From: Maribacter caenipelagi
GTDB lineage: Bacteria > Bacteroidota > Bacteroidia > Flavobacteriales > Flavobacteriaceae
DNA length: 64,000 nucleotides
NCBI RefSeq assembly: GCF_004364175.1
Contig: NZ_SNZW01000011.1
Span: 1-64,000 of the forward strand
Reading direction: 5' to 3'
The notes beneath the pieces were generated by a model, which did no database searches, was not told the DNA's origin, and worked only from the letters and a program-made list of their open reading frames with translations. The translations under genes and the position numbers were made by a program. Each line of letters opens with the position of its first letter. Positions within the stretch are counted from its first letter, which is position 1. Shown here one piece after another: positions 47,512 to 63,394 of this stretch.

Positions 47512-48948
47512 TTAACTCATTTGAATCATTGCTTTCTTAAATGTAGCTTTTGGAGCAGAACACATTGGGCATTCATATGCTTCATCAATATCTTCAAATT
47601 TGGTGCCTGGGGCAATATTAAATGCTTCATCACCGAAAGTCGCATCATAAACCGTTAAGCAGTCTTGACATTGATATAGCGATTGGGTTGCTTCTACAAC
47701 TTCAACACTAGTTTGTTCTTCATCGTCTTCGGCACGACCTAGTTGATCAAAGTACATTTTACTCAATTCCATCAACAACCCAGGTAATTCGATTTTATCT
47801 ATGTCTTGAGCATAGGTAATATACTTCTGACTATTCGGGTCAAAATGCTCAAAATGTAACACGTTATATGTGGGGCGGACTTCAAATTCTTTAACAATAG
47901 TGGGCAAACTATTCTTTTCAATAATCACCGAGGCAAAGTGAGAACGTTTACCCACCTCATTGCTGATACCAAAAGTAAGACCATAGGTACTAATATCATT
48001 TTGATCAAAACTCCTAACTAAAAACTTCTTTAATTCCAACGCCTCGCCATCATCAATAGGCACATGCCAATTCATCTCTAATTGAGAATGCCTAACATTG
48101 ATCCCTCTTTTACCTAAAAAGCGCTCTAAGGCGGGTCTACTAGATTTCTTTATACCTTTTACTACAAATGATTTCCATGGGGTGATACAGATTTTACCAA
48201 TACTGTTATCTAAACAAAAACCGCAGAATTCTTTTAAGAAGGATAGGTCATATTTATTATTTCTCCAGTAAAGACCAAGCCAATACATATCTGAACCCAA
48301 ACGGTTCATGCCCTCATAATAAGGAAAGGTCTGAAAAGGAACCTTCAGCTCCTTTTCCATCGTTTTATTATTGGTCTCTAAGTTCTTGTTAATCACAAAG
48401 AACAACTCATCTATATCGGTAATGTCCTCATAAATTTCTTCGATCTGTTTTGAAATCGAATTGATATCCCAACTATAAATAAGAACTGGATAAAATGCCG
48501 ATGATTTCCAATGCGGAAGCTTAATGTTCAAATACCAATAATCTTCTTGTTCAGATGCTATAAAGTTGAGGTTTCCACTAAAAATAGGAACCAAACGTTG
48601 TTTTGGATCTGTAATATTGATTTTCAACTTGGGTAAAAAGTCAAATCCTTCTAAAATATATAGATAGGTAGATCCTTTAAGCCAGTGGGTCATATCAAAA
48701 ATATCAGCAGAAACATAAGAACTTACTATGTTCTGAAAGGTTCGATTGGCAATAATATCGGTATTGAATTTCGAAATACTTTCTAGCTGTTCTTCTTTTG
48801 CATCTTTTAGCGGAAACAAAATATCTTGTCGAGACCCAAAATTTACACTTGTAAGTCCGGCCGCCTCTAACATGGTGATAATATCTTTCAATTCACCAGG
48901 CGAAGTAACACCTCCTTTTATCAGTATTCTATGAAGATCATCATTCAT
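47512..48948 (-). CDS. Rubredoxin protein with siroheme-reductase-like N-terminus
   Basis: A 478-residue protein. The C-terminus is a rubredoxin: 'YQCQDCLTVYD' and 'YECPMCSAPKATF' supply the FeS4 cysteines (about 430-470). The N-terminal part reads 'LIKGGVTSPGELKDIITMLEAAGLTSVNFGSRQDILFP', and later 'ICITPWKSFVVKGI', like the ferredoxin-like half-domains of sulfite/nitrite reductases, but the four cysteines needed for siroheme/4Fe-4S are absent. It probably carries electrons to or from the nitrate reductase 12 bases upstream. The start is ATG 48948; a TTG at 48957 is also possible. Confidence 0.85.
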   Translation of the reverse strand: MNDDLHRILIKGGVTSPGELKDIITMLEAAGLTSVNFGSRQDILFPLKDAKEEQLESISKFNTDIIANRTFQNIVSSYVSADIFDMTHWLKGSTYLYILEGFDFLPKLKINITDPKQRLVPIFSGNLNFIASEQEDYWYLNIKLPHWKSSAFYPVLIYSWDINSISKQIEEIYEDITDIDELFFVINKNLETNNKTMEKELKVPFQTFPYYEGMNRLGSDMYWLGLYWRNNKYDLSFLKEFCGFCLDNSIGKICITPWKSFVVKGIKKSSRPALERFLGKRGINVRHSQLEMNWHVPIDDGEALELKKFLVRSFDQNDISTYGLTFGISNEVGKRSHFASVIIEKNSLPTIVKEFEVRPTYNVLHFEHFDPNSQKYITYAQDIDKIELPGLLMELSKMYFDQLGRAEDDEEQTSVEVVEATQSLYQCQDCLTVYDATFGDEAFNIAPGTKFEDIDEAYECPMCSAPKATFKKAMIQMS

Positions 48949-48959
48949 ATCTCGCAATT

Positions 48960-51900
48960 TTAATTCGCTAAAACCAGCTGTTTCTTTAATAAATCTTTTA
49001 TTTCGGGCTTACAACTACCACAGCCCAAACCTGCGCCTGTTTCTGAACATAACTTATTGAAATCTGAGCATCCGCCGTTAATCGCATCTACTACATTGCC
49101 TTCACCTACCTGACTACAAGAGCAAACCAATTTTCCTTTAAGCGGTACAGAAGTAGATGCACCACGTAAAAGTTCATTTCGCTTTTCTGAAAGTTCTATT
49201 TCTTCTTCTATCAACCTTTTAAACTCGGCGAATTCATTTTTATCACCCATCAAAATGGCGCCTTTTAACGTATCATCTTTAACTATACATTTCTTGTAAA
49301 AACGCTTACTAACGTCCATTAAAATAATTTCTTCATATGAAGTATCGCCTATGGGTGAATTAACCATACCGATACTGCAGAGATCCAGATTTTCGAACTT
49401 TAAAATGTTCATCAATACCGAACCGTTGTAAATACTACTAAAATCTCCGAGTATAAAATTGGCGGCAATATCTGCTTGCTGTTCGGCAGCTGAGGTAATA
49501 CCGAAAAGTGAATTATTAAACTCCGCAATTTCTCCTAAAGCAAATATCGATGGGTCACTACTTTGTAAGTATGAATTTACCACCACGCCTCTTCTCGTCT
49601 TAATTCCCGTAGGCTTTGCCAGTTCAATATTTGGTCTTGTACCAATTGCATACACAATGGCATTACACTGAATGGACCGTCCTGTTTTTAGATTTACAGA
49701 TAAGCTATGTTTTTGGTCTTTATCTTCAAAAACAGTACTTACCTCATTATCAAAATATAAATTTATACCGCGCTCTATGACATCTTCTGCTAATAGGCGA
49801 CTGGCAACGTTATCTAATTGGCGTTCCATTAATCGTGGCGCTCGTTGTATAATGCTAATATTAATATCTATTTTCTTTAGGGCGGCAGCGAGTTCCAATC
49901 CTAAAAGTCCGCCACCAACGATAACCACATTTTGATCTTTAGCCTGTAAGCCTGTTTCAGCTAAATATTTTCTAAGTTTATCGGCATCACCTCTTTCTCG
50001 CATGGTAAAACGACCAGGTAATCGTATCTGTACATCGCTAGGTATAAATGCTCTACTACCTGTAGCCATTATAAGCAAATCATAGCTATGCTCTTTTCCG
50101 TCGGAATCTAAAACAGTTTTATTCTCCGCATCAATATTGTCGATTCCAATACCCTTATGTAAAGTCACCTCCAGCTTTTGCAACTCCCCTTCCTTTAGCT
50201 TTTCAAGTGCCTCCCAAGAAAGTTCATCACTTACATATTCTGGAAGTAATACACGGTTGTAAAAGGGATCTTTCTCTTTTGAAAATACATGTAACTCGTC
50301 TATACTATTTTTCTCTCTGTACGATTGTATAAAGCGGTATGCCGCAGCACCTGCACCAATAACAACCACTTTCTGTTTTTCTTTTACAAACTTTGTAACC
50401 TCAACGGCACAATACTTAAAATCCGGCTCTTTAGATATGGGGTCGACCAAGTCATTGGTCAAGTTATTTGCCCTACCAAAATCATTGTTCAATACTTTAC
50501 CCCAATGCATTGGCAAGAAAACAACAGATTCTCGTATATCATAATTAAGCTGCACTTTTACCTGTACTTTCCCTCTTCTGCTTTTTACTACCGCAATATC
50601 ACCTTCTTTAATTTTGCGCAGATAGGCATCTACAGCATTCATTTCTAAATAAGGCTGTGGAATGTGGGTCAGCAATCTTTTTACCTTACCAGTTTTGGTT
50701 CGGGTATGCCATTGATCACGAACCCTACCGGAATTCAATATTAGCGGATATTCGTTATCGGTTTCCTCAGATTTGTTGTAAAGTGTATTAGGTGCATTAA
50801 AATGTGCTTTTTTATCGTTAGTAAAGAACTTACGATCCGTAAATAACCTTGGTGTTCCCTTATGTGTTTTATGTGGCACTGGCCACTGAAAACTACCTTC
50901 GTTGATCAACCTATCATATGACAAGCCAGAGATATCTATTTCGGTACCTTTTGTCAATAAACAGTGCTCGTCATAAACTTCACTGCTATTATTATAATCA
51001 AAACCTTTATAACCCATTGCCTGTGCAAATCTCCATATGATCTCTGCATCTGGCAATGCCTCACCAGGGGCGTCAATAACCTTTGGCAAATAACTAATTC
51101 GCCTTTCTGAATTGGTCATGGTACCCTCCTTTTCTAGCCAACCTGCAGCCGGTAATAGAAGATCGGCAAATTTAGTCGTCTCTGAATTATGAGAAATATC
51201 TTGTACCACTACAAATTTTGCCTTTTTTAATGCTCTTTCTACCTTATTAGCATTAGGCATACTCACTGCAGGATTGGTACAAACGATCCAGACTGCTTTT
51301 AACTTACCTTCGTCAAGGGCATCGAACATTTCTGTTGCCGTGTAGCCTGGCTCGGCTTGTATTTCTCCACCTCCCCAGAAATCGGACACTTCTTTTCTAT
51401 GCGTCGCATTACCTAAATTTTTATGTGCTGCCAACAAGCTGGCCATACCACCAACTTCTCTACCGCCCATGGCGTTTGGCTGACCTGTTAGTGAAAAAGG
51501 GCCTGCACCAGGTTTGCCTATTTGCCCCGTTAAAAGTGACAAATTTAGTAATGATACATTTTTGGCAACACCGATTACACTTTGGTTCAGCCCCATTGTC
51601 CACATGCTTATGAACTTTTTAGCATTGCCTATGTATTCGGCAGCCTTTCGAATATCACCAACAGGAATATCACACTTTTTAGCAGCTTCTTTAAGGCTTA
51701 GGGTAAATGCCATTTCTTTACAAGCATCAAAATTTGCAGTATGCTTTTTTATAAAGGCGGTATCTATTTTTCTTTTCTCAATTAATCTACGTGCTATGGC
51801 ATTGAATAAAATAACATCTGTACCCGGTAGAATTTGTAAATGTAGATCTGCACCTGCACAAGTCTGTGTTTTACGAGGGTCTACTACAATTATCTTTACA

Positions 51901-52490
51901 TTCGGGTTTTCTTCTTTATGCTTTTCTAATCTTCTATATAAAATAGGATGACACCACGCCGGGTTCGCCCCTGCAATCAAAAAGCAATCTGCTAGTTCTA
52001 TATCTTCATATGAAATAGGTACCGAATCTTCACCTAAAGTTTTTTTATAACCCACTACTGCAGAACTCATGCACAACCTAGAGTTGGTATCTATATTGTT
52101 CGTGCCAATAAACCCTTTTGTCAATTTATTTATCAGATAGTACTCTTCTGTTAAACATTGTCCCGACACATAAAAACCTACACTATCAGGACCGTGTTTG
52201 GCTATAATACTCTTGAATACGGCAGCGGCACGTTCAAAAGCGGCATCCCAAGAAACGCGTTGTAAAGGGTGGTTACGGCTCCACTTCATTTCTGGATATA
52301 GAATTCTATCTGTAGTATCTTGAGCTACGTAGTTTAAATTACGCCCCTTGGTACAAAGCATACCCTTGTTGGATGGATAATCTGGATTACCATCAACGGA
52401 AATTGTTCCTTTTGCATCTACATCTACCAATATACCGCAGCCAACACCGCAATAGGAACATATTGTTTTATGAGTTTTATTACTGTTCAT
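48960..52490 (-). CDS. Assimilatory nitrate reductase fused to FAD/NAD(P)H and BFD-like [2Fe-2S] modules
   Basis: A 1176-residue cytoplasmic nitrate reductase. Domains in order: a [4Fe-4S] site 'CSYCGVGC' with Cys at residues 11, 14, 18 and 46; a Mo-bisMGD catalytic domain to about 690, with the Mo-ligand Cys in 'NSRLCMSSA' near 150; an FAD domain from 'VVVIGAGAAAYRF' near 707; an NAD(P) domain 'VVIVGGGLLGLEL' near 852; and a C-terminal BFD-type [2Fe-2S] domain ('VCSCSQVGEGN' to 'GLGCGSCKPEI', 1121 onward). It thus joins the catalytic NasC-type chain with the NasB-like electron-input chain in one polypeptide. The start is ATG 52490; an earlier ATG at 52529 adds 13 residues. Confidence 0.93.
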   Translation of the reverse strand: MNSNKTHKTICSYCGVGCGILVDVDAKGTISVDGNPDYPSNKGMLCTKGRNLNYVAQDTTDRILYPEMKWSRNHPLQRVSWDAAFERAAAVFKSIIAKHGPDSVGFYVSGQCLTEEYYLINKLTKGFIGTNNIDTNSRLCMSSAVVGYKKTLGEDSVPISYEDIELADCFLIAGANPAWCHPILYRRLEKHKEENPNVKIIVVDPRKTQTCAGADLHLQILPGTDVILFNAIARRLIEKRKIDTAFIKKHTANFDACKEMAFTLSLKEAAKKCDIPVGDIRKAAEYIGNAKKFISMWTMGLNQSVIGVAKNVSLLNLSLLTGQIGKPGAGPFSLTGQPNAMGGREVGGMASLLAAHKNLGNATHRKEVSDFWGGGEIQAEPGYTATEMFDALDEGKLKAVWIVCTNPAVSMPNANKVERALKKAKFVVVQDISHNSETTKFADLLLPAAGWLEKEGTMTNSERRISYLPKVIDAPGEALPDAEIIWRFAQAMGYKGFDYNNSSEVYDEHCLLTKGTEIDISGLSYDRLINEGSFQWPVPHKTHKGTPRLFTDRKFFTNDKKAHFNAPNTLYNKSEETDNEYPLILNSGRVRDQWHTRTKTGKVKRLLTHIPQPYLEMNAVDAYLRKIKEGDIAVVKSRRGKVQVKVQLNYDIRESVVFLPMHWGKVLNNDFGRANNLTNDLVDPISKEPDFKYCAVEVTKFVKEKQKVVVIGAGAAAYRFIQSYREKNSIDELHVFSKEKDPFYNRVLLPEYVSDELSWEALEKLKEGELQKLEVTLHKGIGIDNIDAENKTVLDSDGKEHSYDLLIMATGSRAFIPSDVQIRLPGRFTMRERGDADKLRKYLAETGLQAKDQNVVIVGGGLLGLELAAALKKIDINISIIQRAPRLMERQLDNVASRLLAEDVIERGINLYFDNEVSTVFEDKDQKHSLSVNLKTGRSIQCNAIVYAIGTRPNIELAKPTGIKTRRGVVVNSYLQSSDPSIFALGEIAEFNNSLFGITSAAEQQADIAANFILGDFSSIYNGSVLMNILKFENLDLCSIGMVNSPIGDTSYEEIILMDVSKRFYKKCIVKDDTLKGAILMGDKNEFAEFKRLIEEEIELSEKRNELLRGASTSVPLKGKLVCSCSQVGEGNVVDAINGGCSDFNKLCSETGAGLGCGSCKPEIKDLLKKQLVLAN

Positions 52491-52535: not shown

Positions 52536-52561
52536 AAAAGTACGTATAAATACGTACTTTT
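52536..52561 (-). promoter_or_regulatory. Palindromic operator TACGT-N6-ACGTA before nitrate reductase
   Basis: The core TACGTATAAATACGTA (52541-52556) sits in an 11-bp inverted repeat, AAAAGTACGTA / TACGTACTTTT, with a TAAA spacer. Its 5-6-5 spacing is that of Crp/FNR-family sites. It lies about 51-66 bases before the ATG. A perfect-arm copy also precedes the MFS-regulator operon at 63339. Confidence 0.65.
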
Positions 52562-52675
52562 TTATCGTAAATGTTTTGGATTAAATCGAGTGATCCGTAA
52601 TTATTCTGCTTTAAGACTGAGAATGGATCAATAAATAGGAAAGTGAGGTGTTGAAATGTTAAAGTAAAGTATCCT

Positions 52676-52948
52676 TTATTTGAACTTTTGTTTATGATGT
52701 AACACCCTTAGTATATAAACGGCATCATTATGAATAATAAAATGGATTGAATATCTAAACGTATTAAAATGAGCCCTTCGAACATTTCGATAGTAAATCT
52801 GATAAAGAAATGGGTTGGCTTTTAAATATGCTATTTGGCTTTTAAAATCATTATCAAATGTATCCTCTAAACCAGATACTTTATAATGACATTTTGCAAT
52901 TAAGAGATCCTTCTCGGCATCTTTTGATACATTAATTTTATATGCCAT
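52676..52948 (-). CDS. RelE/ParE-family toxin
   Basis: A 90-residue RelE/ParE-superfamily toxin: 'VSKDAEKDLLIAKCHYK' start, central 'FKSQIAYLKANPFLYQIYYRNVRRAHFNTFRYSIHF' (about 42-77) and a terminal 'VLHHKQ'. RelE members cleave mRNA at the ribosome and ParE members inhibit gyrase; the residues here do not decide between them. Its start overlaps the antitoxin end by 11 bases, the normal antitoxin-toxin order. Confidence 0.88.
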   Translation of the reverse strand: MAYKINVSKDAEKDLLIAKCHYKVSGLEDTFDNDFKSQIAYLKANPFLYQIYYRNVRRAHFNTFRYSIHFIIHNDAVYILRVLHHKQKFK

Positions 52949-53177
52949 TCCTACTCATTACTTCTTCAATAGAGGAAAATTCTATTTCATTATTATCAAA
53001 TTTATTCAATAAATCATCCATCATATCGGTATACTCCTTTGAGGGTACTTCTAGCTTTTTAGCCTGCTCTATAGCTAAAAATTCTAAGTAGTTTTTAAGG
53101 CTGCGATTTTGCCTTTTTGCTTCCGCTTCCAAAGCAGAGATAATTGTTTCATCTAAGTGTAATTCCTTACGTATCAT
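52938..53177 (-). CDS. ParD-like/ribbon-helix-helix antitoxin
   Basis: A 79-residue antitoxin with an N-terminal ribbon-helix-helix ('KELHLDETIISALEAEAKRQNRSLKNYLE', about 4-32) for DNA binding, and an acidic C-terminal tail that would wrap the toxin. It is first in the operon and is preceded by a perfect 13-bp inverted repeat at 53187-53217, a likely autoregulatory operator. Confidence 0.86.
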   Translation of the reverse strand: MIRKELHLDETIISALEAEAKRQNRSLKNYLEFLAIEQAKKLEVPSKEYTDMMDDLLNKFDNNEIEFSSIEEVMSRNGI

Positions 53178-53186
53178 AATAGAAAT

Positions 53187-53217
53187 ATATTTATACGTAC
53201 AATTTACGTATAAATAT
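53187..53217 (-). promoter_or_regulatory. Perfect inverted repeat before the toxin-antitoxin operon
   Basis: ATATTTATACGTA (53187-53199) and TACGTATAAATAT (53205-53217) are perfect 13-bp arms around CAATT, 10-40 bases before the antitoxin start. This is the expected place for antitoxin autoregulation. The inner TACGTA halves match the nitrate motif, but the spacing is one base longer (TACGT-N7-ACGTA). Confidence 0.65.
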
Positions 53218-53355
53218 CGAATTTAATACAATTTTATCCTTTATTTATATTTTACTGAAGTTATGAGCTTTAAATTCTAGATTGTAAGAAATCATGTCAA
53301 AGACTAGCACCGGCATGGGCCTGCACCTATAAATTTTTTAGTTCGAGCGCCTAAA

Positions 53356-53784
53356 TTAAACCCTATAATAGTCTCCTTTCCAACTTTTGATACTCGATTT
53401 AATTTCTTTGGCAGAAAGTTTTTCTTTTAAAGCTTTTTCCATCAAGGATAAAAACTCATCATCGCTAGCGAAACGTAAGGCAATTATTTGCGACATTCTC
53501 AAATCTGAAGGAAGTAGTTTTCCGGTCATAACATAATGTCTCATATTTTCTTCAGCTCTAATAGCTCTATCTTGTGCTTTTAAAGGAAATGTTCTCACAT
53601 ACCACGCCATCAGAATCAAGATAATGGCAATTAACACCGTTAAAGATGCTAAATACAAGTTTTCTGATGTGGTTCTAAAAAGATGATATACCGACCCAAC
53701 TAATAATGCAACTAAGGCAACAAATAACACGCCGTGAAAACCTGTTACTAGTTTTGCGTGATTTTTAAAATTCTGATTTTTCAT
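53356..53784 (-). CDS. DUF6526-family membrane protein
   Basis: A 142-residue protein with two N-terminal membrane segments (about 14-34 and 41-62) and a charged cytoplasmic tail including 'TFPLKAQDRAIRAEENMRHYVMTGKLLP' (about 65-92). This is the pattern of the DUF6526 family, common in Bacteroidota and uncharacterised. It is a single gene with no visible partner. Confidence 0.8.
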   Translation of the reverse strand: MKNQNFKNHAKLVTGFHGVLFVALVALLVGSVYHLFRTTSENLYLASLTVLIAIILILMAWYVRTFPLKAQDRAIRAEENMRHYVMTGKLLPSDLRMSQIIALRFASDDEFLSLMEKALKEKLSAKEIKSSIKSWKGDYYRV

Positions 53785-53945
53785 TTTATAATTTTTGATA
53801 AAGATACTTGTATAATACGATTTTGCTCAAGTTGTTAGTAGTGGTGTGAAGCCAATTGATGCGAAAACGTACGTCTAACTATAAACGTTGTAGTTTTAGC
53901 ATGAATGAAAGATGAAAAAAATTCGTTTTAAAGAGAATAAAATCT

Positions 53946-54021
53946 CTAAATCAAATTATACTTGTGTGCCTTTTAGAAAGGTCAATTAGGTTTTTTACAT
54001 CCATCTTACGCATTAAATTAA
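53946..54021 (-). pseudogene. Remnant of the response-regulator 3' end
   Basis: 76 bases match the last 77 bases of the NarL-type gene (54523-54599), with about six substitutions and one deleted T. On the minus strand the remnant encodes 'LMRKMDVKNLIDLSK', then shifts frame at the deleted base. It is separated from its source by the lipoprotein gene. It records a duplication or rearrangement of this segment, and no functional product is expected. Confidence 0.8.
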
Positions 54022-54036
54022 TGCCTGTTGTTTAGT

Positions 54037-54489
54037 TTATTGAGACACTAAGATGGTATAACTTCCATTTTCCTCATTCAATTCAAATTCAGCGTTTTCA
54101 ATTCTTAGGTCATTATATCTCGTGAACTCGCAGCAATCTTCAGAAGTTCGTTCGGCCTCAACTATTAAATTTAAAATATCAATGCCGGACACATTTATTA
54201 ATACGTCTACCTTTTCGGACTCCCAGCCTATTGAGTTTAATTGAATCAAGTTTACATTATTCTCATCGATAAAATCAAATTCTAAATTTGAATTGTCGGC
54301 AAGGTTTGTCACACTAATTTCATTAGAATTAAAGGTCTCATTGGTAAAAAGATTTTCCATTGTCGTTTTGTCCACCAATTCAAAAGTGAATCCATTTGGG
54401 GGTGTAAAGCAATCTTTATCCTCACAATCATCGCAAGAATTAAAAATCAATACGAAAGCTACAAGGGCTATGAGGATATTATTTTCCAT
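54037..54489 (-). CDS. Hypothetical lipoprotein
   Basis: A 150-residue protein with a short signal peptide ending in 'IFNSC' (Cys near 19) and several early cysteines ('CDDCEDKDC'). The remainder is acidic, beta-rich and without a recognised domain. It lies between the response-regulator gene and its decayed copy, so it may have arrived in or been spanned by the same rearrangement. Confidence 0.65.
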   Translation of the reverse strand: MENNILIALVAFVLIFNSCDDCEDKDCFTPPNGFTFELVDKTTMENLFTNETFNSNEISVTNLADNSNLEFDFIDENNVNLIQLNSIGWESEKVDVLINVSGIDILNLIVEAERTSEDCCEFTRYNDLRIENAEFELNEENGSYTILVSQ

Positions 54490-54522
54490 TTAGAATTTTT
54501 CTTATAATATCGTAAGATTTTT

Positions 54523-55194
54523 CTAAATCAAATTGTGCTTCTGTGCCTTTTTAGAAAGGTCGATGAGGTTTTTTACATCCATCTTACGCATTAGATTAAA
54601 ACGATGTGTTTCAATAGTACGTTTACTGTTTTGAAGTTTTTCTGATATCTGTTGATTGGTTAAACCAGACAATACCAACTCTAATACCTTAAGCTCTTTG
54701 TTGGTTAAATCAAAAACATTATCAGCACTTTTACGAGGTGACTCTTCTATAACAACCTCTTTTTTTGCTCCCAATAAGTTATTTACCAAAACATTGCTTA
54801 TGTCTCCACTAAAATATTTACCACCTTCTCTAACGGTGTGTATTGCCTTAATGAATTCTGATTTATCGGTATCTTTCAATAAATACCCATTAGCACCTGA
54901 ACTAATAGATTTTAATATGTATTCTTCTGAATCGTGCATGGAAAGTATAATGGTCTTCACCTCAGAATTGCTTTTGGTCAATTCAGCTACGGCATCAATA
55001 CCGTTCATGACGGGCATTCTAATATCGATGATTAAAAGATCAGGATTTACCTTCCCTACCAATTCAATAGCTTCTTTACCGTTCGATGCTTCACCAATCA
55101 CCTCCAAATCAGATTCGGATTCTAATAAAGAACGGATTCCGTCCCTAACCAAGGCATGATCATCTGCCAATACTATTCTTGTTATTTCACTCAA
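54523..55194 (-). CDS. NarL/FixJ-type response regulator
   Basis: A 223-residue two-component regulator. The receiver has 'VLADDHALVRDG' with the acidic pocket, the phosphoacceptor in 'LLIIDIRMPVMNGIDA' (Asp near 56) and 'ANGYLLKDTDKSEF' with the conserved Lys. The LuxR-type HTH follows in 'LTNKELKVLELVLSGLTNQQISEKLQNSKRTIETHRFNLMRKM' (about 167-209). No histidine kinase is in the window. Its position in the nitrate locus suggests a nitrogen or respiratory signal; that is inference. Confidence 0.93.
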   Translation of the reverse strand: MSEITRIVLADDHALVRDGIRSLLESESDLEVIGEASNGKEAIELVGKVNPDLLIIDIRMPVMNGIDAVAELTKSNSEVKTIILSMHDSEEYILKSISSGANGYLLKDTDKSEFIKAIHTVREGGKYFSGDISNVLVNNLLGAKKEVVIEESPRKSADNVFDLTNKELKVLELVLSGLTNQQISEKLQNSKRTIETHRFNLMRKMDVKNLIDLSKKAQKHNLI

Positions 55195-55198
55195 AATT

Positions 55199-55214
55199 TA
55201 GGTAATTATACGTA
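55199..55214 (-). promoter_or_regulatory. Near-match of the TACGT-N6-ACGTA motif
   Basis: TAGGTAATTATACGTA differs from the motif at one position and lies 5-20 bases before the response-regulator ATG. At that distance it would fall in the leader and could act as a repressor site; it may also be chance. Confidence 0.35.
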
Positions 55215-55245
55215 CCGTGCTAAATTACATATTTTAAAAACAACA

Positions 55246-55281
55246 ATACGGTCTACACAACCAATGCTGCATAGACCGTAT
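55246..55281 (-). terminator. Terminator of the nrtABCD-porin operon
   Basis: The 9-bp arms ATACGGTCT (55246-55254) and AGACCGTAT (55273-55281) enclose an 18-base loop. On the minus strand the stem is followed by TGTTGTTTTT. It lies 25 bases after the porin stop. Confidence 0.75.
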
Positions 55282-55305
55282 AACTAACTAAATTCTTGTA
55301 AAACT

Positions 55306-56589
55306 CTATTCTTTTTTGGTATTCAAAAACTGAGGCTTAATAGTTAACTGTACCCAAGCCCAATTTTGGCTACTTGCCGCTAAATCTTCTGTAACCCCTT
55401 TAAGTTCATACATACCATCTGCAGCGAACATTTGAGAATACCCGATTGCCAAACCGTAACCATTGAACTTTTTAGCAAACACCAAATCAATCTCCGTACC
55501 CAAAGATTTTTCACCGCTTGGCAATTCTTGTTCTCCACTAAAATTTAAGACTTTAACCAGTAAGCTAGATTTCTTTCCTAAATCGAATTTTGCACTTGCG
55601 TGAATGTCAAACAGACCTACTGAATTGGCATGGTTACCTACGTAGAAATAATCCATAAATCCGTTAAACTTATGATTGGTTCCGTATAGTGGAAAAAATG
55701 CCTCTGTTTTGTCTGTAGTATCTGCTTTGTTTCCGCTAATAACTTCTGTACCTAAACCTAAAACTACCTTATCACTAGCCTTATACCCAACCTCTAAACC
55801 TAGTAAATATGCACCGCCAACCTTTACTTCGTTCTGTCTTTCTCCCGTTTGTAAAAATAGGTTGGCATTTGCACTGAAACTGCCCGCTTTATATGCTAAG
55901 TGTGTACCAATTGTTTGCAAACTACTTACACCGTCTGCAGCACCGTCGGTATCAAAATTTTGGAAACCGTTGTTCAATGCCAAAATGCTCCCAGAGAATT
56001 TATCCCATTGTTGTTTTGCATATACATATTGCATGGTTTTATAGGTAAAAAAACCAGATGTATTGTAGGCTGTACCTACAGATTGAAAACCCGTAGGGTT
56101 ATCAAAATCTTGACTAAAAGCAAGACCTACATCTAACATGAACTTGTCTTTTTTATACTTTAAAAGTCCCGCATCATGGTTTCTGCCTTGTTGAGCCCAA
56201 TCCAATCCGCCAAAAATACGTTGGTCATCATAAGAGATAACTTGTCTACCCAATTTTGTAGACCACCCTTTACCTAAATTTATATTTGCCCATGCTTCGA
56301 ATACAGCAAAAGAATCATTTTGATCATCTGGTAGAATTTGTCTATTCTCTCCCCAAACCATCACATCTTGTATACTTAAATAAAACTGATACGCCTCAGA
56401 TTCATATTTCGCATTTAATCGAGCTCGTGTAGAAATGGCGAAACCTGCATCTGCGGCATCGGGTATTAAATTACCAAAACCATGTCTGTATTCTGTTCTT
56501 GGTCTAAATTGCCCGTCTAGCGTAAATTGTGCATACATGGCATTCGCCGTTAGAAACAATAGGGTAATGATTAGATATTGCTTTTTCAT
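55306..56589 (-). CDS. Alginate-export-family outer-membrane porin
   Basis: A 427-residue outer-membrane beta-barrel with an N-terminal signal peptide (cleavage after 'NAMYA'). It has the repeated aromatic-terminated strands and 'LDGQFRPRTEYRHGFGN' start typical of alginate_exp porins, which in flavobacteria also serve small anions. As the last gene of the nrtABCD operon it probably admits nitrate or nitrite through the outer membrane. Transport specificity is inferred from position. Confidence 0.85.
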   Translation of the reverse strand: MKKQYLIITLLFLTANAMYAQFTLDGQFRPRTEYRHGFGNLIPDAADAGFAISTRARLNAKYESEAYQFYLSIQDVMVWGENRQILPDDQNDSFAVFEAWANINLGKGWSTKLGRQVISYDDQRIFGGLDWAQQGRNHDAGLLKYKKDKFMLDVGLAFSQDFDNPTGFQSVGTAYNTSGFFTYKTMQYVYAKQQWDKFSGSILALNNGFQNFDTDGAADGVSSLQTIGTHLAYKAGSFSANANLFLQTGERQNEVKVGGAYLLGLEVGYKASDKVVLGLGTEVISGNKADTTDKTEAFFPLYGTNHKFNGFMDYFYVGNHANSVGLFDIHASAKFDLGKKSSLLVKVLNFSGEQELPSGEKSLGTEIDLVFAKKFNGYGLAIGYSQMFAADGMYELKGVTEDLAASSQNWAWVQLTIKPQFLNTKKE

Positions 56590-56624
56590 AATCGTAATTT
56601 TTAAGTAAATGATTGAGTTATTTG

Positions 56625-57449
56625 TTAGTGTTCTAAAAAGTCTATTAGGTGTTTTCTGTACGTGTAATAATCATCGTTCTCCAAAACGGATTTACGAGTT
56701 CGTGGTCTTTCAAAATCTATGGAAAGGATATCGCCAATCTTGGCACTTGGGCCACTGGTCATCATAATGACGCGATCTGCCAGAAAAATAGCTTCATCAA
56801 CATCATGTGTAATCATGACCGCAGTAATTTTCTCCTTGTTCCAAATTTCTATAAGAATATCTTGTAATTCTCCCCTAGTCAGTGAGTCTAACATTCCAAA
56901 AGGCTCGTCTAATAACAATACTTTTGGCTTAATAGCGAACGCCCTGGCGATACCGACACGCTGTTGCATACCTTGAGATAATTCCGAAGCCTTTTTATGG
57001 AAGGCATTCTCAAGGCCTACTTTTTGCAAATAGTATTTTGCAATATCTTGACGTTGGCTTTTGGTTGCATGCGGAAAAACTTGGTTTACACCTAACAATA
57101 CATTCTGCAAGGCGGTCATCCAAGGCATTAGGCTTGGGGACTGAAAAATGACCCCTCTATCTGGTCCGGGACCTTTTACAGGATTTCCCAGTACGGAAAT
57201 ATTGCCTCCAGAAATCGGATTTAGACCTGCGATCATAGAAAGCATTGTTGTTTTTCCACAGCCAGAATGCCCTATTATGGTTACAAATTCTTCTTTTAAA
57301 ATCTGTAAATTCAAATCTTCAAGTACCACATAATCTCCCTTTGATGTCGGATAAACTTTCTTCAACTTAGAAAGGTCTAGCATAACTTTAGACGGGTAGA
57401 TAATGCCATTCTCTGAATATACTTCGTTAGCTTGTTGTGTCGTGTTCAT
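56625..57449 (-). CDS. nrtD: Nitrate/nitrite ABC transporter ATP-binding protein
   Basis: A 274-residue nucleotide-binding subunit. Walker A 'GHSGCGKTT' near residue 59, signature-like '[14 protein letters not shown]' (LSQG in place of LSGG), Walker B '[13 protein letters not shown]' and '[15 protein letters not shown]' H-loop are all present. It forms a pair with the second ATPase of this operon. Only 35 bases separate it from the porin gene. Confidence 0.94.
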
Positions 57450-57460
57450 ATACTCTTTCT

Positions 57461-58300
57461 TTAGGCTACAAAGCTTTTAGGAGTGAGCTCTGGTAATTTA
57501 TATTCTACGTCAGAAACTGTTTTTCTTTCATCACCTATGTCCATTAAATATTCAATAATGGAGTTTCTTGTTTTCTTGTACTCAGGATTATCGTTCATTG
57601 CCGTTTTATCCCTTGGTCTTTCAATGTCGATTTTAAACTCTGGTCCCAACGTTGCATTTGGTCCTGGTTTTAAAGGAATTATTCTATCTGCCATATAAAT
57701 ACCTTCGTCAACATCATTGGTAATCAATAAAGCAGTACGCTTATCTTGACTCCAGATATTCAAAATCTCATCTTGTAAGTTGCCACGTGTAAGAGCATCC
57801 AAAGCACCTAAAGGTTCATCCATAATGATCATTTCTGGATTCATAGCCAAGGCACGTGCAACCGCAACTCTTTGTCGCATTCCACCAGAAAGCTCTTTAG
57901 GTCTTTTATTTATTGCAGGACTAAGGCTTACCATTGCTACATATTCCTTTACCCTTTTCATCAAGTCTTTTTTACGCTCTTTCGGGAAAGCTTCTTTTAC
58001 TGCCATGTAAATGTTTTGACCTACCGTTAACCATGGTAAAAGCGAATAATTTTGAAAAATTACACCGCGCTCATGACTCGTATCGGTTACGGGTACTCCT
58101 TTAAAAAGAACTTCTCCGCTCGTTGGTTGCAGGAGTCCGTTAATAAGGTTTACCAAAGTGGTTTTTCCACTTCCCGTAAAGCCTACAATAGCTACAAACT
58201 CCCCTTCATCCATAGTAAGGTTGATATTGGAAAGTACCTCTGTACTACTATCTCCCTCACCATAGGTTTTGTATATATTATTTAGTTCTAAATATGCCAT
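57461..58300 (-). CDS. nrtC: Nitrate/nitrite ABC transporter ATP-binding protein
   Basis: A 279-residue ATPase with 'GFTGSGKTT' (Walker A), '[14 protein letters not shown]' (signature) and '[15 protein letters not shown]' (Walker B). Cyanobacterial NrtC carries an extra NrtA-like regulatory domain at its C-terminus; it is absent here, so nitrate inhibition of the kind described for cyanobacteria is not expected. It lies 19 bases after nrtB. Confidence 0.93.
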
Positions 58301-58319
58301 ATTCTAACTTTTGATAGCG

Positions 58320-59420
58320 TTATGCCATTTCGTTTTTATTGAAAGAAACCATGTTCTGTACTGCTAACATCAACCTGTCTAACAAAAAGCCAATGATACC
58401 GATGACGAACATTGCGACGATAATTTTTGAGTTGGAATCGTTTGCCCCGTTCTGAAATTCTTCCCAAACGAAAAGACCTAATCCTTGACTTTGTGCCAAA
58501 AGCTCAATAGCAATCAATACCATCCACGCCACGGATAGCGTAATTCGTAATCCCGTGAAAATTAACGGTAAAGAAGAAGGCAAAATAACCTTGAATACTT
58601 TTTGAAAAGTTCCCAACTTTAATATTTTGGCAACATTGATGTAGTCTTTATCTACAGATGCCACGCCCATCGCCGTATTGACCAAAGTTGCCCACATGGC
58701 ACAAAGACCCACACTTATAAACGAGATAACAAAAGCATTATCTGAACTGTCGCCGATATATAATGTTTTTACGATCATAAAAACCAATAGGTACCATACT
58801 ACAGGAGACACAGGTTTAAAAATTTGAATAAACCAGTTAAATGCACTTCTTAATGATGGACTAAGGCCTATAATTATCCCAATAGGTACTGCGATAAACA
58901 TTGCTAAAAGAAAACCGGCAAATACTGTTTTTATACTTGTTAAAACTATATCTACAAATGAGGCTCTACCCGTATATACAATTGGATCTTTACCTTGAGA
59001 AATCATTTTCTCATTAGTAACCGCCATTTTCTCTGCGAATGCAGCCTTATCGGCACGAATAACCTGGTGGTCTGCGACTAAAGATTTTAACGATGCCCAT
59101 ACTTGAGAAGGTGATGGTAATGTATTTGGCTGACAACTACTGTCGCCAGATTCTATACACGCGCGCTCTGCAGCGGCTGCTTCTTCTCCTCTTTCTTGTA
59201 GAGCTTTTTCAACCCTGTAATCTGCTTCTTTATTGTAAAGCGCTTTTGAACCCATTTGCCATAAACCAATGAACAATAAGATGGACAAAAGAGTTATACC
59301 AGTATTTTTCAAAGATTTTATAATGCCATCTTTTTTAATACTTGGCGTAAGTTTTGAAAGTATTTGCTTCAAACTAGAAGACAAACTTTTTTCGTTTTTT
59401 AAGACCATTTCTTGTTCCAT
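58320..59420 (-). CDS. nrtB: Nitrate/nitrite ABC transporter permease
   Basis: A 366-residue inner-membrane permease with six or seven hydrophobic segments and the EAA-type loop 'GVASVDKDYINVAKILKLGTFQKVFKVILPSSLPLIFTGLR' (about 257-297) contacting the ATPases. Compared with cyanobacterial NrtB it carries about 100 extra N-terminal residues, including a charged periplasmic-like insertion. It follows nrtA by 33 bases. Confidence 0.94.
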   Translation of the reverse strand: MEQEMVLKNEKSLSSSLKQILSKLTPSIKKDGIIKSLKNTGITLLSILLFIGLWQMGSKALYNKEADYRVEKALQERGEEAAAAERACIESGDSSCQPNTLPSPSQVWASLKSLVADHQVIRADKAAFAEKMAVTNEKMISQGKDPIVYTGRASFVDIVLTSIKTVFAGFLLAMFIAVPIGIIIGLSPSLRSAFNWFIQIFKPVSPVVWYLLVFMIVKTLYIGDSSDNAFVISFISVGLCAMWATLVNTAMGVASVDKDYINVAKILKLGTFQKVFKVILPSSLPLIFTGLRITLSVAWMVLIAIELLAQSQGLGLFVWEEFQNGANDSNSKIIVAMFVIGIIGFLLDRLMLAVQNMVSFNKNEMA

Positions 59421-59453
59421 ACTGTTTAATTTAAGGTCAATGATTTAAAGTTC

Positions 59454-60842
59454 TTATTTCTTGTCTTTGTTACCGATCGAGAAACTATTGATATACCCAA
59501 TTGGATCCTTAGCATCATAGCTCGTTCCATCTATAAAGTCTGAAGTTGCTGCTTTGTAACCATCTGTATCAGGAACATCTGCTGCTGGTATCTGACCCTC
59601 TGCCACTAAAATATCTGCGGCTTTTTTCCATATATCTGGTCTGTAGATATCTTTAATCGTACTCGCATACCAATCAGAAGATTTAGATTCAGGAATCTGT
59701 CCCCATCTACGCATTTGAGTTAAGAACCATATTCCGTCAGAATAGAATGGATACGTTGCATTGTATTTGTAGAAAACATTGAAATCTGGCATTTCACGCT
59801 TGTCGCCTTTTTCAAATTCAAAGGTACCTGTCATAGAGTTTGCCAAAACTTCTTTTGGTGCGCCTACATACTGTGACATGGAAAGTATTTCTACCGCTTC
59901 AGCTCTATTAGAAGGTTCGTCTAACCACTTACCAGCTCTGATCAATGCTTTAGTTACCGCTATGGCAGTATTAGGATTTTGCTCTACGAATTCCTTCGTC
60001 ATTACAAACACCTTCTCTGGGTTGTTTTTCCAAATATCATAGTTTGTAGTAACCGGTACACCAATACCTTTAAAAACTGCTTGTTGGTTCCAAGGCTCAC
60101 CTACGCAGTATCCGTAAATAGTACCGGACTCTAATGTAGCTGGCATTTGTGGCGGAGGAGTTACCGATAACAACACCTCGGCATCTATTTGCCCTTGAAC
60201 ATTGTCTGCAGTATACATACCTGGGTGAATACCCGCTGCGGCCAACCAATAACGCAATTCATAATTGTGCGTAGATACCGGGAAAACCATTCCCATTTTA
60301 AATGGTTTGCCTTCATTTTTATAGGATGTAATTACTGGTTTTAAAGCATCTGCTTTAATTGGGTGAATTGGCTTACCATCTGAATCTGCTGGTACATTTG
60401 GTTTCATTTTAGACCAAACATCGTTAGATACGGTAATTCCGTTACCATTTAAATCCATAGAAAACGGAGTAACCAATTCTGCTTGTCTACCAAAACCTGC
60501 TCCTGCAGCAATTGGCTGACCTGCCAACATATGTGAACCATCTAATTGTCCGTCAATTACACGATCTAAAACATTTTTCCAGTTAGATTGTGCTTCTACA
60601 GAAACAAAAAGTCCTTCTTCTTCAAAAAATCCTTTTTCTTTAGCAATCGCCAAAGGAGCCATATCCGTTAGTTTTATAAAACCAAATGTTAACTGTGGCT
60701 TTTCAATATCTAGCATTTTAGTTTTTGAGGCTACAGCTTCTTCTGAAGCCGCTTCTGCTTTCTTACTTTTTGTATCTCCACATGCCGTAAATACCAAGGC
60801 GAGGGAAAGTGTTAGAATAGATGAAGTAAAAATGTTTTTCAT
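59454..60842 (-). CDS. nrtA: Nitrate/nitrite-binding lipoprotein
   Basis: A 462-residue periplasmic solute-binding protein tethered as a lipoprotein ('LVFTACGDT', Cys 21). It belongs to the NrtA/CmpA family: '[28 protein letters not shown]' (about 50-77), '[19 protein letters not shown]' and '[15 protein letters not shown]'. It should capture nitrate, possibly nitrite, for NrtBCD. It begins the operon, and motif-like sites lie 20-57 bases upstream. Confidence 0.94.
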
Positions 60843-60862
60843 AATCTTATAATTTAGTGTTC

Positions 60863-60898
60863 TACGTATTAATACTTATTTCTACAAATATATACGTA
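60863..60898 (-). promoter_or_regulatory. Two degenerate TACGT-N6-ACGTA sites before nrtA
   Basis: TACGTATTAATACTTA (60863-60878) has one mismatch to the motif; TACAAATATATACGTA (60883-60898) has one perfect half and two mismatches in the other. Both have the 5-6-5 spacing and lie 21-56 bases before the nrtA ATG, overlapping the likely promoter. Confidence 0.5.
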
Positions 60899-60992
60899 AC
60901 TGCATTTTTCATTAATGATATAAGCGATGTTTAAACCTCTTTTTATAACATGTTAAAACACCTTGATTAACCATATTAAAAACTGCCAAAAG

Positions 60993-61017
60993 ATAGTTTT
61001 TGCGCATAAAAAACTAT
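60993..61017 (-). terminator. Possible AT-rich terminator after the Crp/FNR gene
   Basis: ATAGTTTTT (60993-61001) and AAAAACTAT (61009-61017) pair perfectly over nine bases. The hairpin is AT-rich with no strong T run after it, so termination is not certain. Two extra TACGTA hexamers, at 61058-61063 and 61083-61088, lie nearby without a partner half-site. Confidence 0.4.
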
Positions 61018-61091
61018 AAAACAGTATATTATGATGTTTAAAATATATGGTGTTAACTACGTAAAGAGGAGAATTAAAGAAGTACGTACTA

Positions 61092-61850
61092 CTAGCTGTC
61101 CAAATAGAAATTATGCTCTGAAATTTCTTTTTTAAGCAATTCAATATTAGAAATACCAACTCTTTTACCTTTGGTAAGTAATAACCCTTCTTTTTTAAGA
61201 ATAGAGAACATTCTAATTACTTGTTCTTCTGTAGTACCGGCATAGTCTGCGTACTCTCGTCTACTTAATAAAAGGGAAGAAAATCCGTTGGTTTGCCCAA
61301 ACTTTCGATTCATATATAATAAAGTATCTATGACACGTTCTCTAACCGTCATTTGCGATAACGATTTTACTCGGATTTCGCTGCGATTTAGTTCATTCGC
61401 GTAGAACAACATAAAATCATAGGTTAGTCCAGGTGTTTCCCTTAGGGTTTCTTGAAGTAATTCTTTGGAGAAATAACATAGTGTACAATCTACCAAAGCA
61501 ATGGCACTTATGGGGTAGGTCTCTTCTGTACCAAAACCTCTATGCCCAATAATTTCTCCCGGAGTGGCGAAACGAACTATTTGTTCTTTACCATGAAGGC
61601 CGGTTCTTAATACTTTTACCTTGCCACTTAACAGAAAAAACAACCCGGTAACAGAAGCGCCTTCCATAATAAACTGCTGTCCTTTTTTGCACTTTATTTC
61701 CTTTCTAGTCTGAACTAGCTTATCTATATTCGGAGAATCAATATTTTTTCTAATAAGGCAATTTTGATTGGTACATATACTACAGGCGCTATCAATCATT
61801 CCCGATTCATTAGGTAAATGATTTGATATGTAGTCTGTACCAGTGCGCAT
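61092..61850 (-). CDS. FNR-like Crp-family transcriptional regulator
   Basis: A 252-residue Crp/FNR regulator. The cNMP-type sensor domain spans about residues 38-150, and the winged helix about 170-235 with recognition helix 'GTTEEQVIRMFSILKKEG', which keeps the Glu and Arg that contact DNA in Crp. Four cysteines, C23, C26, C31 and C122, sit almost exactly where FNR ligates its oxygen-sensing 4Fe-4S cluster, so redox or oxygen control is likely. It follows the MFS gene by 12 bases, so it is probably autoregulated from the sites at 63339. Confidence 0.9.
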   Translation of the reverse strand: MRTGTDYISNHLPNESGMIDSACSICTNQNCLIRKNIDSPNIDKLVQTRKEIKCKKGQQFIMEGASVTGLFFLLSGKVKVLRTGLHGKEQIVRFATPGEIIGHRGFGTEETYPISAIALVDCTLCYFSKELLQETLRETPGLTYDFMLFYANELNRSEIRVKSLSQMTVRERVIDTLLYMNRKFGQTNGFSSLLLSRREYADYAGTTEEQVIRMFSILKKEGLLLTKGKRVGISNIELLKKEISEHNFYLDS

Positions 61851-61862
61851 AGAAATACTATT

Positions 61863-63290
61863 TTATATAGAACTTGTTGCTAATTTTATTGCAGGCTTCG
61901 TCGATTTTGCCAATTCTTCCTTCACCTGTTTTTCGTCTTCTGCAGAGAATTTAATAGCCAAAGTTGTCAGTGCGGTAACAATTACAAATCCGCCAATAAT
62001 AAAGTAGCCGCTAGAAACTGCTCCTGATGCAGCTGCAGATTGTGCCGCCTTCATAGCTTCTTCTCCTAAATTTGCATTTGTCGCTAAAGCATTGGTTTCT
62101 GCCAATGCAGATTTAGATTTCAATAAAAGTGCCGCTAAAAAAGCACCTACATTACCGCCTGCACCAACAATACCAGATATGGAACCAATTGCTTTTTTGT
62201 TTATAAATGGTACTACGGAGAATGTTGCACCTTCTGCCATTTGTACCGTTAAACTAAAGGCTATTAAAAATACGATACCCATTGCAAAACTCGTAGCCAT
62301 AGAAAATGTTGAAAGCATAACCCCTTCAAGTGCCAGTATTACGGTCAAGAAAAGTACCCTTCCACGTAATCCTTTTAATCTCCCAAATCGATCTCCGAAA
62401 AAACCACCCAAGGTTCTTGCAAAAATATTCATGAGTGCAAATGAAAGTACCAGATTACCTGCAGTGGATCTTGTTAATCCAAACGTGTTTTGCAAGTAAT
62501 CATCCATAGTGCCGTATACAGTAAGTTCCATTCCAAAAGATGCCGCGTATACAATGAAAAGAATCCACACTCTATAATCTTTTAATACACTTACAAATGA
62601 TTCTTCATCTTTTTTAAGCTTCGGCATTTTGCCAGCTTCTTTCAATTCCTTAAAGTTTCCCTCCGGAGTATCTTGGGTAAAAAAGTAATATACAACACCC
62701 ATTATCATGGCAATAACACCAGCGATAATCATAGAATATCTCCAAGCAATTTCATCTGCAACTCCAAAACTTACCACTGCAGCAGCAATTAATGGCATAC
62801 CCAGACGATTGGCACCACCTCCTAAATTTCCCCATCCTGCGGAAGTAGCATTCGCGGTACCAACAATATTGGGAGCGAACAATATAGAAGTATGAAACTG
62901 GGTAATTACAAACGATGCTCCAATAAAACCTATAAACAATCTACATATTAAAAATTGAGTAGGTGTTTGTACAAAACCGATCAGAATTACGGGTATGGCC
63001 CCTAAAATCAACAAATAGGTATAACATAATCTAGGGCCATATTTATCACAAAGCTTACCAATTAATAGTCTAGCGAAAACGGTTCCCGTAACCGCCAATA
63101 TAATAGAGTTCCATTTTTGATCGGGAGTCAACCCTAAATCCTTTACCACATCTGGCATGAAAGGAACTATACCAAACCATGCAAAAAAGCATATAAAGAA
63201 TGCTATTGATGTTATCCAAAAAGTACGGATTGGCATACTTTTTAAATAAGTTAACTTTAAAGTAGTCGATTTTTTGGATTGATTTTCCAT
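61863..63290 (-). CDS. MFS nitrate/nitrite transporter (NNP family)
   Basis: A 475-residue transporter with 12 membrane segments. The NNP-family nitrate signature 'GWGNLGGGANRLGMP' lies near residue 152, and the second-half conserved loop appears as 'GGFFGDRFGRLKG'. There is a ~35-residue hydrophilic C-terminal tail. It imports nitrate in parallel with NrtABCD. First gene of a probable operon with the FNR-like regulator; two palindromic sites lie just upstream. Confidence 0.93.
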   Translation of the reverse strand: MENQSKKSTTLKLTYLKSMPIRTFWITSIAFFICFFAWFGIVPFMPDVVKDLGLTPDQKWNSIILAVTGTVFARLLIGKLCDKYGPRLCYTYLLILGAIPVILIGFVQTPTQFLICRLFIGFIGASFVITQFHTSILFAPNIVGTANATSAGWGNLGGGANRLGMPLIAAAVVSFGVADEIAWRYSMIIAGVIAMIMGVVYYFFTQDTPEGNFKELKEAGKMPKLKKDEESFVSVLKDYRVWILFIVYAASFGMELTVYGTMDDYLQNTFGLTRSTAGNLVLSFALMNIFARTLGGFFGDRFGRLKGLRGRVLFLTVILALEGVMLSTFSMATSFAMGIVFLIAFSLTVQMAEGATFSVVPFINKKAIGSISGIVGAGGNVGAFLAALLLKSKSALAETNALATNANLGEEAMKAAQSAAASGAVSSGYFIIGGFVIVTALTTLAIKFSAEDEKQVKEELAKSTKPAIKLATSSI

Positions 63291-63338
63291 GATATATTTT
63301 GTTTCGTTTAAAAATCAATACAAACCTAAACTATTTTA

Positions 63339-63394
63339 TACGTAATTATACGTAGTTTTGAACAATTTACTTATTTACTACGTACTATTGCGTA
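63339..63394 (-). promoter_or_regulatory. Paired TACGT-N6-ACGTA sites before the MFS-regulator operon
   Basis: TACGTAATTATACGTA (63339-63354) matches the motif fully; TACGTACTATTGCGTA (63379-63394) has one mismatch. They lie 49-64 and 89-104 bases before the MFS ATG at 63290 and 40 bases apart centre to centre, the spacing of about four helical turns, which would allow two dimers on one face of the DNA. Confidence 0.65.

Follow-up and report, generated by a model that had tools for sequence, protein, structure and literature searches.

In a 64,000-nucleotide stretch of Maribacter caenipelagi DNA (RefSeq assembly GCF_004364175.1, contig NZ_SNZW01000011.1, positions 1 to 64,000; hereafter the window), genes for nitrate uptake and assimilation are preceded by copies of a 16-bp palindrome, first described as TACGT-N6-ACGTA and proposed, from the letters alone, to mark a candidate nitrate regulon. 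Our results support the palindrome as a real and conserved element that marks such a regulon: it stands before orthologous nitrate genes in many flavobacterial genera and is nearly absent from control promoters. Taken as a whole, the evidence is best explained if the palindrome is the predicted operator of a NarL/FixJ-type response regulator encoded between the nrt genes and nasA, an explanation that we consider likely together with the kinase and regulon proposed for it. A dimer of the regulator would sit on two inverted TAMGTAT heptamers 2 bp apart (TAMGTAT-WW-ATACKTA), joining the 7-2-7 arrangement known from NarL to a FixJ-like half-site, and with its kinase the regulator would control nrtABCD, a NarK-type major facilitator superfamily (MFS) gene, nasA, nirB and its own gene.

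The five sites named in the original prediction, two perfect and three with one mismatch, were recovered at the same positions and with the same mismatch counts (Table 1). A scan of the window gave just those five, as had been noticed earlier without an exhaustive search. Dinucleotide shuffling gave an expected 1.02 sites, and five or more turned up in 0 of 100 shuffled sequences. The site before the response regulator gene is kept at the same place in near Maribacter relatives, and a second site upstream of the MFS gene is also found in three other loci (L018, L025 and L026). At the place of the lone half-site beside the nrtA promoter box, many aligned nrtA promoters carry TACGTA or TACTTA, as judged by inspection without a tally. 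In the 4.28-Mb genome, TACGT-N6-ACGTA occurs without mismatch at four places, three of them at the nitrate locus; the third of these lies just outside the window end, before nirB (C1:64390), and the fourth genomic copy (C1:907094) has a different core. The form tolerating one mismatch showed no genome-wide enrichment, with 79 places vs. 115 for a reversed control pattern, and was dropped as a genome-wide search tool because the control was equal or higher. The strict form, defined as TAMGTA-N4-TACKTA, has five copies, of which the nitrate locus contains four, and the fifth, which sits within a mutarotase-like coding frame, was rejected as an operator; as the reversed control also occurs five times, it is the clustering at the nitrate locus that is informative and not the number of strict sites.

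Conservation was assessed in the best 80 of 518 loci around nrtA, including those of Maribacter, Zobellia, Cellulophaga, Polaribacter, Algibacter and Winogradskyella, to which ten 20-kb stretches from nine genomes of a family sample were added, and a promoter was counted when a strict site lay within 200 nt upstream of the gene. Such sites were present before nrtA in 83/84 promoters, before nirB in 40/40, before the nitrate MFS gene in 34/39 and before nasA in 32/44; cobA, divergent from nirB and mostly sharing its site, had one in 31/32. The FNR-like gene of the locus (32/68) and the response regulator gene (16/46) were preceded by a strict site in smaller shares. Among control promoters the count was 1/243 (nrtB 0/77, nasB 0/35, kinase 0/30, cysG-like 0/17 and porin 1/84). 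Because related species are not independent, all these figures are counts and not probabilities.

The consensus over the 244 sites of the strict set is TAMGTAT-WW-ATACKTA, that is, inverted heptamers with 2 bp between them: T occupies position 7 in 84% of the sites and A occupies position 10 in 73%, both flanking bases (T..A) are present in 64%, and the two central positions hold A or T in about 98% or more. When spacers of 0 to 30 between TAMGTA and TACKTA were tried, exactly 4 was found in 205/253 promoters vs. a shuffled mean of 0.1; we read the minor peaks at spacers of 24-28 as extra half-sites. The arrangement is the 7-2-7 that NarL is reported to prefer (PMC4549865). The heptamer itself departs from the TACYYMT given for NarL (PMC4886647), position 4 being G in all four heptamers of the two perfect window sites, and in all 244 strict sites by construction of the pattern. 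The half-site is instead the core of GTAMGTAG, the selected consensus of FixJ, whose fixK site, TAAGTAATTTCCCTTA, is 16 bp long and starts with TAAGTA (PMC4999443), while GTACGTAG is given within a FixJ-bound fixK promoter (PMC13327599). Among the 244 sites the match to the TAMGTA core holds by construction; directly after the core, T is found in 84% and G in 5%, and directly before it, A in 52% and G in 9%. The 16-bp span had first been taken for the 5-6-5 geometry of Crp/FNR dimers. It does equal that of CRP, but it equals the 7-2-7 of NarL as well, and the CRP-type reading is geometrically possible without being needed.

The candidate binder has a receiver domain (PF00072, E 4.9e-29) and a LuxR-type GerE helix-turn-helix (HTH) domain (PF00196, E 1.1e-16), as members of the NarL/FixJ family do. 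Among solved relatives NarL is the nearest over the full length, and the recognition helix of the candidate binder, SKRTIETHRFNLMRKM, aligns with the FixJ helix, SPRTVEVHRANVMAKM. This helix is near-invariant in the 37 regulators of the loci set and in 29/30 further regulators, that of locus L148 being the only one outside the pattern. Across 119 genomes sampled from the family (cut-offs of E up to 1e-55 for the regulator, 1e-250 for nasA and 1e-60 for the FNR-like protein), the regulator was found in 29, and nasA in exactly the same 29. Genomes with the regulator have a median of 8 strict sites vs. 1 in those without it (Mann-Whitney p 1e-10); the reversed control differs less between the two groups (means of 3.4 vs. 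2.0, p 2e-4). In 43 loci no regulator gene was in reach; of their genomes 38 were tested and all 38 carry the regulator elsewhere. Among the displaced regulators, 24 of the 30 fetched have a strict site upstream. From these observations we infer that the response regulator binds the palindrome.

The nirB operon, just outside the window, encodes a kinase with PilJ, PAS, HisKA_3 and HATPase domains and no match to HAMP or GAF. Among the kinase sensors reached, AGxxR is present in 31/31 and INxAGxxR in 30/31, matching the nitrate P-box given in PMC8199190. A Bacteroidetes class of nitrate-sensing systems, narHK/narRR, is described there as having no HAMP or GAF domains (PMC8199190), and our kinase has the features of that class, a PilJ domain with the P-box and a PAS domain in place of HAMP or GAF. 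Judged from the gene neighbourhood, the kinase is very probably the partner of the response regulator. Between nirBD and the kinase, most loci that reach so far carry a gene for a DUF4202 protein (L016:7436-8026), which was not seen in L096.

For the sign of control, transcription starts were inferred from the exact TAnnTTTG nearest to each site, a -7 box of the type described as spanning -12 to -5 (PMC9723704). The palindrome is centred at -18.5 in 67 promoters (20 nirB, 14 MFS, 23 FNR, 5 nasA and 5 nrtA) and at +10.5 to +13.5 in 75 nrtA promoters; the other centres are -30.5 (15 MFS), -27.5 (6 regulator), -40.5 (2 nasA), +4.5 (5 regulator) and a few more. Most sites overlap the core promoter or follow it closely, and NarL is reported to repress frdA from a 7-2-7 site at -4/+6, near the transcription start (PMC4549865); we therefore lean towards the response regulator acting mainly by repression. 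The same protein, bound to the palindrome, might instead be an activator, like NarL at napF and yeaR. Nitrate is expected to switch nitrate genes on, and the 2 nasA sites at -40.5 and 15 MFS sites at -30.5 would suit an activator, as would the upstream half-sites and the second sites before nirB and the MFS gene; the 67 promoters centred at -18.5 and the 75 nrtA promoters speak against it, and we regard activation as rather unlikely. We know of no ordinary activator that works from centres of -18.5 or +10.5 to +13.5.

Several points weigh against the response regulator as a mainly repressive binder of the palindrome. Strict sites precede its own gene in just 16/46 promoters and nasA in 32/44. 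By overall HTH score, EsrB (E 5.6e-11) and SsrB (E 6.1e-10) are closer solved relatives of it than FixJ (E 1.1e-7). The use of the nearest box biases the distances towards short values, and a -7 box was in range for just 8/31 nasA and 20/41 nirB promoters. A kinase activated by nitrate, as in Escherichia coli, would make repression of nitrate-uptake genes paradoxical. Family genomes without the regulator still have the strict pattern (mean 2.4, with 19 in one genome), so that the sequence is not exclusive to the response regulator, and a different conserved regulator could recognise it. Such a protein, encoded apart from the locus in the same genomes, would account for the pattern in genomes that have no response regulator; the exact co-occurrence of regulator and nasA, their linkage, the sites before the regulator's own gene and the pairing of a FixJ-like helix with a FixJ-like half-site all speak for the linked protein, and we consider an unlinked binder improbable.

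As a separate observation, two family genomes in which the response regulator was not found, G129 and G150, contain 9 and 19 strict matches, with TACGTAGTTCTACGTA-like palindromes that would belong either to a different regulon or to a repeat.

The original prediction had assigned the palindrome to the FNR-like protein of the locus, whose altered recognition helix (EEQVIR) could explain a new half-site. The CRP-like 16-bp span, the presence of the gene in the locus and the strict sites before that gene agree with such an assignment, but the distribution of the gene does not. Of the genomes behind 14 loci with no FNR-like gene in reach, 12 were searched for an ortholog; 7 have none, their best paralogs being 23-33% identical or missing altogether. 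All 7, three of which (G005, G006 and G012) are metagenome-assembled genomes, keep palindrome sites, and G001, G002, G004 and G005 have their strict sites in the nitrate locus without exception (5/5, 5/5, 3/3 and 3/3). In the family sample, the FNR-like gene is present in 22 of the 29 genomes with nasA and the regulator and in no other of the 119; the remaining 7/29 still have strict sites before nirB, the MFS gene, nasA, nrtA or the regulator gene. A CRP/FNR operator should be found only where a CRP/FNR regulator is present, and this is not the distribution seen: conservation of the site does not depend on the FNR-like protein. Moreover, three Winogradskyella loci (L047, L056 and L062) with a changed helix (TNEQVTR or TDEQVTR) have the usual palindrome, and the nrtA promoter contains a separate and better candidate site for the protein, described below. 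We therefore consider it very improbable that the FNR-like protein binds TACGT-N6-ACGTA. Function as an RNA hairpin in the leader, suggested by the position of the nrtA palindrome within the inferred leader, was rejected as scarcely credible, since positions 3 and 14 are not complementary in 91/244 sites and the nirB, nasA, MFS and FNR sites with a scored box lie nearly all upstream of the inferred start.

The FNR-like protein nevertheless probably has a role at nrtA. Its N-terminal cysteines are conserved among 69 orthologs (C23 in 66/69, C26 in 68/69 and C31 in 68/69, in the numbering of the window's reading frame), as is C125 (60/69), the candidate counterpart of the central cysteine of FNR; like FNR, an oxygen sensor with a 4Fe-4S cluster, it has three N-terminal cysteines and one central cysteine, a set suited to a predicted iron-sulfur (Fe-S) cluster. 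When nrtA promoters are aligned on the palindrome, a second inverted repeat, ATG-N8-CAT, appears upstream of the near-constant TAnnTTTG box. Where the genome has the FNR-like gene, 56/74 nrtA promoters carry this repeat, against 4.5 in shuffles; where it does not, 0/8 do, a lack that is weaker evidence than the figure suggests because these eight promoters are also otherwise rearranged. The N8 spacing is by far the commonest for an ATG/CAT repeat, the runner-up reaching 14/74. With starts inferred from the -7 box, 51/55 exact sites are centred at -41.5, the position of class II CRP/FNR activators. Loci with the helices TNEQVTR, TDEQVTR or SDEQVIR have 2-3 mismatches in ATG-N8-CAT, but 1-2 are also present in several loci whose helix is the usual TEEQVIR, Maribacter among them, and the covariation of helix and site, while suggestive, is not clean. 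Judged from sequence and position, the FNR-like protein probably activates nrtA separately, as a class II activator bound at ATG-N8-CAT. Compared by eye, the HcpR and NsrR motifs given in PMC1274295 match neither palindrome.

Many nrtA promoters also have a conserved AAAAAGAGGTTT-like block upstream of ATG-N8-CAT (window positions 60933-60944); no such block was seen by eye in the 8 promoters from genomes that lack the FNR-like gene.

If the response regulator mainly represses, either nitrate lowers the activity of the kinase and relieves repression, or control is dual. Tentatively, and aware that it may well not hold, we propose for marine flavobacteria a NarL-family system of inverted sign. 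Nitrate, sensed by the HAMP-less PilJ-PAS kinase, would relieve repression exerted from TAMGTAT-N2-ATACKTA operators on nrtABCD, narK, nasA, nirB and the regulator's own gene. At nrtA an Fe-S protein of the FNR type would activate from -41.5 and the response regulator would block from about +11. If true, the high-affinity transporter would be gated by two inputs, nitrate and redox or another signal.

The other genes of the locus are listed in Table 1. The porin gene stands beside nrtA in 76/80 related loci (the 4 exceptions are short contigs), and its product is possibly an outer-membrane channel for nitrate. A frame of 90 amino acids upstream of the nitrate reductase gene (52676-52948) may encode a toxin of the RelE/ParE type.

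Table 1. Predicted regulatory sites and genes of the nitrate locus (window coordinates; a dot marks features given without strand)
Feature	Position	Strand	Details
Nitrate reductase partner protein	47512..48957	-	C-terminal rubredoxin domain; from sequence
Assimilatory nitrate reductase	48960..52490	-	C-terminal part resembles N-terminal part of NirB; start taken as inner ATG
Predicted operator before nitrate reductase, TACGTATAAATACGTA	52541..52556	.	Perfect; 51 nt 5' of ATG at 52490
NarL/FixJ-type response regulator, likely binder	54523..55194	-	Response_reg and GerE domains; encoded between nrt and nasA
Predicted operator before response regulator gene	55199..55214	.	One mismatch; 5 nt 5' of TTG start
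Alginate_exp-type porin	55306..56589	-	Downstream of nrtD; domain match
nrtABCD nitrate ABC transporter genes	56625..60842	-	Names inferred from sequence and order
Predicted operator before nrtA, TACGTATTAATACTTA	60863..60878	.	One mismatch; centre +10.5 of inferred transcription start
-7 box of nrtA, TATATTTG	60885..60892	-	Inferred +1 at 60880
Lone half-site TACGTA	60893..60898	.	Next to nrtA -7 box; window sequence
Candidate FNR-like site ATC-N8-CAT	60915..60928	-	One mismatch to ATG-N8-CAT; centre -41.5
FNR-like regulator	61092..61850	-	N-terminal CxxCxxxxC, from sequence; cysteines conserved in orthologs
NarK-type nitrate/nitrite MFS transporter	61863..63290	-	TIGR00886, 310.8 bits, slightly below cut-off of 311.7
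-7 box of MFS gene, TAGGTTTG	63321..63328	-	Inferred +1 at 63316
Predicted operator before nitrate MFS gene, TACGTAATTATACGTA	63339..63354	.	Perfect; centre -30.5 of inferred start
Second, weaker predicted operator before MFS gene	63379..63394	.	One mismatch

Bacteroidota are major degraders of marine algal matter. In the open-access literature that we searched, we found no description of an operator or of the control of nitrate assimilation in Bacteroidetes, and PMC8199190 lists the signalling of its nitrate-sensing kinase class as open. For these kinases our analysis supplies a predicted operator, a list of the genes concerned, a candidate pair of sensor and regulator, and a sign of control that can be tested. 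What is new is this operator, the set of genes and the repressor-like arrangement; the system itself is of a known kind. The analysis also corrects a plausible assignment: the protein encoded by the regulator gene of the operon that follows one of the best sites is unlikely to be the one that binds it.

CRP sites have a 16-bp two-fold symmetry. The palindrome shares it with sites of the CRP/FNR family (FNR, HcpR and NtcA), and the locus contains an FNR-like gene; unlike such sites, the palindrome is conserved without that gene, whose product has its likely site at ATG-N8-CAT, centred at -41.5. With the rhizobial FixL-FixJ pair the system has in common a similar recognition helix, the TAMGTA core of the half-site GTAMGTAG and the 16-bp length of the fixK site (PMC4999443), whereas FixL is an oxygen sensor, and FixJ sites are described as imperfect palindromes from which fixK is activated (PMC4999443, PMC13327599). 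As in the Bacteroidetes narHK/narRR class, a PAS-containing, HAMP-less nitrate kinase and a regulator are found near nitrate genes, and to what PMC8199190 describes we add a predicted operator, regulon and sign of control. The NarX-NarL and NarQ-NarP systems of E. coli likewise combine a regulator of receiver and GerE domains with a PilJ-type sensor that has a nitrate P-box, and their operators, too, are inverted heptamers 2 bp apart (PMC4549865, PMC4886647). The flavobacterial system differs in its heptamer, TAMGTAT vs. TACYYMT, in a kinase with PAS and no match to HAMP or GAF, in its predicted control of assimilation, and in sites that lie mostly over the core promoter.

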